In this document: positions 25,307 to 37,414 of the stretch, one piece after another
How positions within the stretch are numbered: the stretch's first letter is position 1
How the letters are laid out: the number at the start of each line of letters is the position of its first letter
DNA from: a virus
Virus record (IMG/VR): IMGVR_UViG_3300033553_000563
Coordinates: 1-37,414 of that record
Reading direction: 5' to 3' (one strand)
DNA: 37,414 nucleotides
The notes under the pieces: model-generated
The model's input: only the letters and a program-made list of their open reading frames with translations
Databases searched by the model: none
Told to the model about the DNA's origin: nothing
Program-made: the position numbers and the translations under genes

Positions 25307-25341
25307 CCAGTCGGTTTTATTAAATGGTTTTGGACGACCCT
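25307..25341. repeat. Block shared with 1163-1211 (copy 2)
   Basis: CCAGTCGG (25307-25314) and ATGGTTTTGGACGACCCT (25324-25341) repeat the block near the methylase gene. Here it covers the 3' end of the 86-aa gene, encoding its last residues GSSKTI. TCCAAAA (25284-25290) can still pair with TTTTGGA (25328-25334), a reduced version of the stem seen in copy 1. I see no plus-strand promoter in front of this copy. Confidence 0.6.
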
Positions 25342-25580
25342 TTTTTCGGTTCTTCAAATACTGGATCAATTTCTTCTAAAAATTGCGTTAACTGGTAATA
25401 ACCATCTTCTACATAATTTTTAAATGAAGAATCATCACTGTTTTGCATATACAACATTAATGCGCCGTGCATAAATTTACGCATATATTGCGCAAATTCT
25501 ATTGGACTCATTTGTTTTTCAAAAAATACTTCAATGTTGTTTAAAACAGTTTTACTTGGAAGCGCGGTTCGTGTACTCAT
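25320..25580 (-). CDS. Hypothetical protein coupled to the antirepressor
   Basis: 86 aa, mostly helical (SKTVLNNIEVFFEKQMSPIE; FAQYMRKFMHGALMLYM), no membrane segment. It overlaps the antirepressor stop by 4 nt and so is in its operon. I do not recognise a family. The last six codons fall within a sequence block repeated at 1194-1211, so the present C-terminus may result from recombination. Confidence 0.65.
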   Translation of the reverse strand: MSTRTALPSKTVLNNIEVFFEKQMSPIEFAQYMRKFMHGALMLYMQNSDDSSFKNYVEDGYYQLTQFLEEIDPVFEEPKKGSSKTI

Positions 25581-26269
25581 AGCGATAATTTTAATTGATT
25601 AGCGGTAAATATACGAGAACCGGAAGCTATTAGCTGCAAGCCAAGCTCGGTTGTAAACCAACTTGGGTTGGTTGCCCCAAATAACCATATTTTAGCAGCT
25701 AAGGGCTGCCTGTGATTTAGCTTTTTAGCAGTTTGGCCGCTTGATGTTCTGCTGCCAATGGAAGTATGGTAATCGTTCATAGAAAACCAGTTAATTTTTT
25801 CAAGTTCTATGCAACGTATCGGCTTTTCATTAATTAAAACTTGAATAAAAGGAATATCACGCGCATCAATATAATCTTGTTTGGCGTGGCTGGTGGCATA
25901 ATAACCTTTTTTGCGAACGGCAGGCAAAACTTCTTCCATTACCCAACGTTCAAACTTTTGGGCGGTTGGTAAAGTAGATTTCATAATTAAGCGATACACG
26001 TCGCTTTCAGGAATAACAGAAACTTGAAGTTTTTTAGCTTCTGATTGTGGATGCGGTATGTAACTATTTGTTACGTACCTACAATGATCTTTAATTGCTT
26101 TTCTTGAGTTTTTGTAACCCAACGCATTAGCAACATCTGAACCTATAAAGTGAGGCTCGTTGTTTACAAATACATTTCGGATTTCTGATTTACTTTCGGA
26201 GAAGTTGAAAGTCATCACTTGAGATTGCTCATTTTGAGACTGAACTGGTCTGTTGTTTTGTGCATTCAT
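25577..26269 (-). CDS. BRO-N domain phage antirepressor
   Basis: 230 aa. The Bro-N domain spans about residues 18-115: IRNVFVNNEPHFIGSDVANA, then LGYKNSRKAIKDHCR, ESDVYRLIMKSTLPTAQKFE and RWVMEEVLPAVRKKGYYAT. The C-terminal part (DYIDARDIPFIQVLINEKPI and the rest) is a separate domain I do not recognise. Such proteins bind or counter phage repressors to promote induction. It is expressed from its own promoter (26421-26428) through a structured leader, apart from the early operon, consistent with a switch function. Confidence 0.82.
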   Translation of the reverse strand: MNAQNNRPVQSQNEQSQVMTFNFSESKSEIRNVFVNNEPHFIGSDVANALGYKNSRKAIKDHCRYVTNSYIPHPQSEAKKLQVSVIPESDVYRLIMKSTLPTAQKFERWVMEEVLPAVRKKGYYATSHAKQDYIDARDIPFIQVLINEKPIRCIELEKINWFSMNDYHTSIGSRTSSGQTAKKLNHRQPLAAKIWLFGATNPSWFTTELGLQLIASGSRIFTANQLKLSL

Positions 26270-26293
26270 CTTATTTGAGAATTTAATGTATGC

Positions 26294-26417
26294 GGGCTTA
26301 CCTTTAGGTTTCTCAAACCGTTTTTAGACGGAATTACAGTCCTTTCGGAACTGCTAACCTTGGATAAGCCCTTATCGTAAAAAATTATTTTCAGATTTCT
26401 CCAAAAACGGTTTGAGA
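26294..26417 (-). ncRNA. Structured leader RNA of the antirepressor gene (candidate pseudoknot)
   Basis: On the minus strand a 15-bp perfect stem joins 26417-26403 with 26325-26311, starting 3 nt after the -7 box, so near the first transcribed base. Inside is a hairpin (26353-26337; CAGUUC, loop CGAAA, GGACUG). GGGCUUAUCC (26371-26362), in the main loop, can pair with GGUAAGCCC (26302-26294) outside the stem, a pseudoknot with one bulge. The antirepressor ATG is 25 nt further on. It may be a cis-regulatory RNA or a separate small RNA. I cannot match it to a known class. Confidence 0.6.
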
Positions 26418-26520
26418 CGACAAACATACAAAAAATATTTAAATGAACGTTAATTAAGTTTTTAGGTATTTTTTAAAATAGTAACATCGCCTATTTTAGT
26501 TTTTGGTGGTTTTATAATAC
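26413..26520. repeat. 108-bp direct repeat, internal copy
   Basis: Identical over 108 bases to 37307-37414, the last bases of the window. It contains the 3' part of the 48-aa gene, the promoter in front of the leader RNA and the first transcribed bases. Confidence 0.95.
26421..26428 (-). promoter_or_regulatory. Promoter -7 box for the antirepressor leader
   Basis: TATGTTTG on the minus strand matches the Bacteroidota TAnnTTTG -7 element. The -33 region is AT-rich without a clear TTG at the best distance. Transcription would begin at the first bases of the 15-bp stem. Confidence 0.55.
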
Positions 26521-26608
26521 CACTACAGATATTTACGGAATGAATCATTGTTTGCCCTATAAAAGGGTCGTACACTTGGCATCCACATTTTGGACAGGCT
26601 TTTTTCAT
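26462..26608 (-). CDS. 48-aa Cys-rich (zinc-ribbon-like) protein
   Basis: The protein begins MKKACPKCGCQVYDPFIGQT and continues MIHSVNICSG...TILKNT. CPKCGC plus the later HSVNIC gives a possible CxxC...C/H metal site, smaller than a full zinc ribbon. It lies between a long hairpin (26644-26711) and the antirepressor promoter. Its role is unknown; small phage zinc-ribbon proteins are often regulators or host-takeover factors. The 3' end of a second, identical copy appears at the window's right edge. Confidence 0.7.
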   Translation of the reverse strand: MKKACPKCGCQVYDPFIGQTMIHSVNICSGIIKPPKTKIGDVTILKNT

Positions 26609-26643
26609 ATTATTTCACTTTTAAGTTAATTTTTTCGAGAGCC

Positions 26644-26711
26644 GCACTGCAATTAACATCTGATAAAGCCACATTAAAAAACGTGGTTTATCAGCCAGTT
26701 AATTGCAATGC
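26644..26711 (-). ncRNA. Long RNA hairpin in the early transcript
   Basis: The arms 26698-26711 and 26644-26657 pair over 14 bp (one G-U or mismatch: GCATTGCAATTAAC against GTTAATTGCAGTGC). After a small internal loop CTGATAAA/TTTATCAG pairs over 8 bp, then CCAC/GTGG, with a 10-nt T-rich loop. It separates the 61-aa and 48-aa genes. It lacks a T run directly after the stem, so it may be an RNase III processing site or stability element rather than a simple terminator. Confidence 0.6.
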
Positions 26712-37306: not shown

Positions 37307-37414
37307 TGAGACGACAAACATACAAAAAATATTTAAATGAACGTTAATTAAGTTTTTAGGTATTTTTTAAAATAGTAACATCGCCTATTTTAGTTTTTGG
37401 TGGTTTTATAATAC
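37307..37414. repeat. 108-bp direct repeat, terminal copy
   Basis: Identical to 26413-26520 and cut by the window edge, so the true repeat may be longer. It carries the leftward promoter TATGTTTG (37315-37322) and the 3' end of a second copy of the 48-aa gene. Confidence 0.95.
37356..37414 (-). CDS. 3' end of a second copy of the 48-aa Cys-rich gene (partial)
   Basis: Encodes the same C-terminal ~19 residues (IIKPPKTKIGDVTILKNT, stop at 37356-37358) as the gene at 26462-26608. The start is beyond the window. It is either a real paralogue in the flank, a tandem or nested prophage, or an assembly overlap. Confidence 0.5.
   Translation of the reverse strand, partial: IIKPPKTKIGDVTILKNT

Follow-up and report, generated by a model that had tools for sequence, protein, structure and literature searches.

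How might an antirepressor gene be governed by a long, structured leader carried on its own transcript? The question is raised by a locus in the IMG/VR virus record IMGVR_UViG_3300033553_000563, positions 1 to 37,414 of which are considered here (hereafter, the window). Among its genes are those for a transposase, a Mu-type portal and an S24-type repressor, and the record is therefore that of a Mu-like phage. On its minus strand, the gene for a Bro-N antirepressor (25577-26269; Pfam Bro-N, 1.9e-22; PHROG anti-repressor Ant, 5.2e-41) is preceded by a segment in which a pseudoknot-like leader had been predicted. That layout was regarded as typical of riboswitches, RNA thermometers or small RNAs, and as a control point of a kind unfamiliar from Mu-like phages. 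In this paper, we report a comparative analysis from which the segment is very probably (probability of about 0.88) a c4-type antisense RNA, accompanied by an upstream segment named a1, which silences the Bro-N antirepressor in trans.

Methods

Details of c4 RNAs were taken from the phage P1 record, from Rfam and from a published account that covers the role of c4 and its processing by RNase P in phage P1 (PMC5320573). Relatives of the window leader were collected by a search with the antirepressor (31-68% identity) and by searching Bacteroidota genomes with c4-2 and with a model, and 19 leaders, one per lineage and including that of the window, were compared. The search model, named R1, was built from eight relatives with the window left out.

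Three segments are distinguished throughout: the 5' leader segment (a1), the antisense segment (a') and the target at the start of the antirepressor gene (a2). Alignment of all leaders with MAFFT misplaced the variable parts; the pairings of a1 with a' and of a' with a2 were therefore assessed by exchanging partners among lineages, and an alignable subset served for the core.

Structure of the leader RNA

The perfect 15-bp stem that had been predicted close to the start site is present on the minus strand, where 26417-26403 pair with 26325-26311. Counting one G-U, it reaches 18 bp (26417-26400 with 26328-26311) and joins a1, UCUCAAACCGUUUUUGGA (26400-26417), to a', UCUAAAAACGGUUUGAGA (26311-26328). 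The helix begins 3 nt past a putative promoter -7 box, TATGTTTG (26421-26428), that fits TAnnTTTG, the Bacteroidota-type consensus for this element. Such a box lies 2-5 nt 5' of a1 in 16 of the 19 lineages, consistent with a transcription start site at, or directly before, the a1:a' stem. The folding energy of the segment is -41.0 kcal/mol, against a mean of -25.9 for shuffled sequences (z -4.27; 0/200 shuffles).

Within the stem lies the expected hairpin, P3, GCAGUUCCGAAAGGACUGU (26336-26354), formed by 26354-26348 and 26342-26336, and in a shorter helix, P2, GGUU (26356-26359) pairs with AACC (26307-26310). The arm that had been said to pair outside the stem, ahead of the ATG, corresponds to P1, in which GGGCUUAUC (26371-26363) and GGUAAGCCC (26302-26294) form 9 bp, with the 3' strand outside the a1:a' stem and 25-33 nt 5' of the ATG at 26269. 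P1 crosses the a1:a' stem and the fold is therefore a pseudoknot, the topology originally predicted. A third pairing had gone unseen: through GUUUGAGAA (26318-26310), a' also pairs with a2, UUCUCAAAU (26281-26273), just 5' of the ATG. This helix has 9 bp, 8 of them Watson-Crick; a2 lies 4-12 nt 5' of the ATG in the window, while in most relatives the pairing covers the start codon itself. In the window sequence a' can pair with a1 or with a2, and the two pairings are mutually exclusive. When the leader is removed, the window RNA (core 26291-26372) folds as a c4 RNA at -29.1 kcal/mol, with UUUGAGA unpaired.

The GGW processing motif at the 5' end of P1 is not conserved in sequence among the window-type lineages. 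A conserved A(C)(G/A)AUA is found immediately 5' of P1 in most lineages (26379-26373 in the window) and could perhaps be a candidate processing site.

Covariation across relatives

The upstream sequences of the relatives are very different, and three helices head a listing of all helices, namely a1:a', the crossing P1 and the helix between a' and the start region. The a1:a' helix averaged -26.8 kcal/mol with matched partners and -11.7 with swapped ones over the 19 leaders, a segment's own partner being the best in 19/19. Both P1 and the a':start-region pairing are lineage-specific (0/20000 permutations for each, 19 lineages). The latter is less specific than the leader pairing, with the own partner best in 6/19 by duplex energy and 11/19 by longest helix, as would be expected if the start codon is shared. 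The covariation score of the c4 core was reached by 0/500 shuffles, with 23 double-changed cells, and slid controls were far lower; P2 covaries in relatives (GAUG/CAUC in L004), as does the P3 helix in A5. Every helix covaries, and the predicted structure is thereby strongly supported across homologues.

Single differences between close leaders follow the same pattern. L043 and L044 are set apart in a1 by an AC/CU difference, which has its counterpart both in a' and in the first protein codons. Between the window and L011, a C/G difference recurs at the equivalent position of a1, a' and a2. The three segments have evidently evolved in concert. One relative, L009, lacks the structure. A divergent form occurs in L020, L022 and L053, in which the leader holds two distinct segments and the target ahead of the ATG is split (by eye for L053), a layout that is nearer to the a/b pairs of phage P1. 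A plus-strand ribozyme, suggested by the order of the helices, was considered and dropped, the promoter box, the covariation and the start-codon pairing all being on the minus strand.

Assignment to the c4 RNAs

At the gathering score, Rfam gives zero matches on the window. Below that score, the window matches c4-2 at 28.5 bits (E 0.001; gathering threshold 41), and sub-threshold c4-2 matches occur at the same position before the antirepressor in three relatives (L019, L021 and L010). An Rfam hit had been expected to settle the identity of the RNA; the search does point to c4-2, by a match placed as in the relatives but lying under the gathering score. No match to Rfam C4 is listed at E 10 in 26000-26700, in a listing that keeps a single match, the best, for each clan; c4-2 and C4 share a clan. 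Matches to eukaryotic miRNA families were set aside as chance matches to the long inverted repeat.

Model R1, from which the window had been left out, locates the core of the window on the correct strand (22.9 bits, E 2.5e-5 in 1 kb, 26290-26375), and recovers 14 loci in 9 of 395 Bacteroidota genomes. Four of these loci score 43.5-53.6 against c4-2, above its gathering score, and the relatives thus bridge the window type to loci above the c4-2 threshold. In the phage P1 record, which served as a control and gave the matching Rfam C4 (68.8) and c4-a1b1 matches, the annotated order is promoter, a1, b1, c4, a2, b2, icd and ant. The window has the c4 core fold, a same-strand position upstream of the antirepressor, antisense to the start region and an upstream a1, and the constant b' of ordinary c4-2, with its UAGGA/UCCUA pair, is replaced in the window type by the variable a'.

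On these comparisons, the proposal of a control RNA for the antirepressor is supported in the form of a probable c4-type antisense RNA. Of the three classes suggested for it, the small RNA stands, while riboswitch and thermometer fall away, no Rfam family of either kind matching the window. The supposed unfamiliarity does not hold either: this kind of control is already known from phages P1 and P7 and from the Rfam c4 clan, and Mu-like phages of Bacteroidota carry it repeatedly. What is new is the long leader helix, as an elaboration of a known kind.

Small-protein loci in Bacteroidota

Ordinary c4-2 RNAs (L110-L139) gave 36 matches in 10/395 Bacteroidota genomes, 35 of them above the cut-off and up to 6 per genome. 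They nearly always precede a 77-aa protein, each with its own match of loop, leader and start codon. This triple match is present although the ordinary c4-2 loci were not used in forming the c4 idea. Window-type c4 RNAs are also found before a second family of small proteins (89-94 aa, beginning M-x-K-E-N-Q), at 13 loci in 8 genomes (L140-L153). At the small-protein loci found with R1, residue 2 varies (Q, T, S or L) in an otherwise fixed M-x-K-E-N, as would be expected if codon 2 follows a'; codon 2 of the 89-94-aa family appears to track the antisense sequence. None of the small proteins matches a family in Pfam, NCBIfam or PADLOC at a meaningful score.

Phage and gene context

In the window, the antirepressor is followed by an 86-aa protein (25320-25580, minus strand). 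It is a relative of the 77-aa protein encoded behind ordinary c4-2 RNAs in Bacteroidota (E 9e-6 by BLASTP for a single pair; profile match E 1.9e-5). All relatives from named or grouped genomes are from Bacteroidota. A Mu-type portal was found in 12/12 tested virus records carrying the window-type RNA, and a related transposase in 7/12 of them. The antirepressors of L005 and L011 are nearly identical in their C-terminal halves and unlike in their N-terminal halves and leaders, which suggests that leader and N-terminal part may be swapped as one block.

The end of the record (37307-37414) is an exact 108-bp copy of the c4 promoter region (26413-26520), joined directly to the apparent phage end. 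On the left, the record ends instead within a host gene that reads, by eye, like ResB. The duplication may reflect insertion of the phage into the c4 leader of a sibling, or a chimeric assembly. This copy had been considered as a target in trans and was dropped, being an exact duplication at the end of the record, after the phage end.

Proposed mechanism and alternatives

A single promoter would give a transcript comprising a1, the c4 core (P1, P2, P3 and a'), a2 at the start of the antirepressor and the antirepressor gene. The c4 RNA would be freed from the leader, probably through cleavage near the 5' end of P1, by analogy with the action of RNase P in phage P1. Freed c4 RNA would then pair in trans with a2 and block translation, keeping the prophage quiet and giving the host an immunity limited to phages that share this a2. 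With less confidence, a1 is proposed to pair with a' in the uncut transcript and so mask the antisense; a phage that has just entered a cell lacking c4 RNA would still make its antirepressor.

The masking step is suggested by the strengths of the two pairings. In the 19 window-type lineages the leader pairing averages 12.9 bp and -26.8 kcal/mol and the target pairing 8.3 bp and -12.6 kcal/mol, these and the following values being bare duplex energies in which the cost of opening the core is ignored, and the leader pairing is the stronger by at least 3 kcal/mol in 19/19. In phage P1 the two are equal (-27.0 for the leader and -26.7 for the target), and in ordinary c4-2 they are -17.2 and -14.4, with 7.4 bp each. 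Judged by these pairing energies, it is possible, at something near even odds, that the long a1:a' helix masks a' in the uncut transcript and that only leaderless RNA represses. Somewhat more tentatively, a1 would be a built-in anti-antisense, with repression exerted only in trans by cut c4 RNA made earlier.

Under a different account of the same c4-type RNA, a1 does no masking and is simply a second target, through which free c4 RNA represses or destabilises its own precursor in a feedback. The P1 record does annotate a1 and b1 as putative C4 RNA target sites, and the equal pairings of phage P1 would suit this account. We regard it as rather unlikely for the window type, as a plain duplicate target would not need a leader pairing so much longer than the target pairing, and as a1 shares its transcript with a', which favours pairing in cis.

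A leader acting only in cis, as a riboswitch, thermometer or protein-binding element in which a ligand, heat or a protein moves a' between a1 and a2 with no free antisense, would be well served by two mutually exclusive pairings of a', of which a1:a' is the stronger in 19/19. It is nevertheless improbable: besides the lack of an Rfam match to such families, the RNA varies most where it pairs, whereas a ligand pocket would be conserved, and sequence, structure and gene order indicate c4 RNAs, which act in trans.

The inverted repeat could otherwise be a DNA element, such as an operator or a transposase site, or a product of chance. The final 108 bp of the record do repeat the stretch from a1 outward, next to the phage end. 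This explanation is highly improbable, given that 0/200 shuffles reach the fold and that it recurs in 19 lineages, that lineages differ completely in sequence while the repeat, unlike an operator, tracks the start region of the antirepressor, and that concerted changes in a1, a' and a2 are observed between lineages. Least probable of all is control of the antirepressor by a leader peptide translated through the structure, for although a 53-aa ORF is present (26266-26427), its ATG lies inside the promoter box and the L005 frame ends after 11 codons.

The preferred reading as a c4-type antisense RNA would extend c4-type RNA immunity to Mu-like phages of Bacteroidota and provide the c4-2 motif with a supported role and a supported target there. 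The code of a1, a' and a2 is legible from sequence and predicts which of these phages should be mutually exclusive. The long leader raises the question of how an antisense on the transcript of its own target avoids immediate shut-off. If the mask is real, a phage could sense at the level of RNA whether a cell is empty or already houses a prophage of its own specificity, and a module with many specificities would also govern two families of small proteins, in several copies per genome, in Bacteroidota. Searches of the non-subscription literature gave no description of a long dominating leader, of the small-protein modules or of a Bro-N antirepressor targeted directly in Mu-like phages.

Comparison with known systems

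The sar RNA of phage P22 has its own promoter and does not lie in the leader of its target. It acts as an antisense RNA that prevents translation of an antirepressor (PMC12197685), which is the action proposed for the window RNA, and differs in having no c4 fold. The Group 1 C4-like sRNAs of Acinetobacter baumannii (PMC5320573) resemble the window type in their many c4 copies per genome and variable a', but unlike the window RNA they are C4 proper and belong to Gammaproteobacteria.

The C4 and c4-a1b1 RNAs of phages P1 and P7 (RF01695, RF03163) share with the window the operon order of promoter, a1, c4, a2 and antirepressor, the core of P1, P2 and P3, variable antisense parts and a target at the translation start. 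The two differ in that the match Rfam lists for the window, as the best of the clan, is to c4-2, and that the window has a promoter box of the Bacteroidota type. Phage P1 has two short separate pairs (a and b), whereas the window type pairs through a single long a1 (9-18 bp) and has just one target, which is weaker; the target is icd in phage P1 and the antirepressor itself in the window.

From ordinary c4-2 RNAs (RF02944), with a leader and target pairing of about 7.4 bp and the constant UAGGA/UCCUA pair, the window differs in lacking that pair, in scoring below the gathering threshold and in preceding Bro-N in place of the usual 77-aa protein. It shares with them the core fold, the motifs AAGG, GAAA loop and ACCUAAA, the occurrence in Bacteroidota, the promoter box, the triple match of a1, a' and a2, and the family of the downstream protein.
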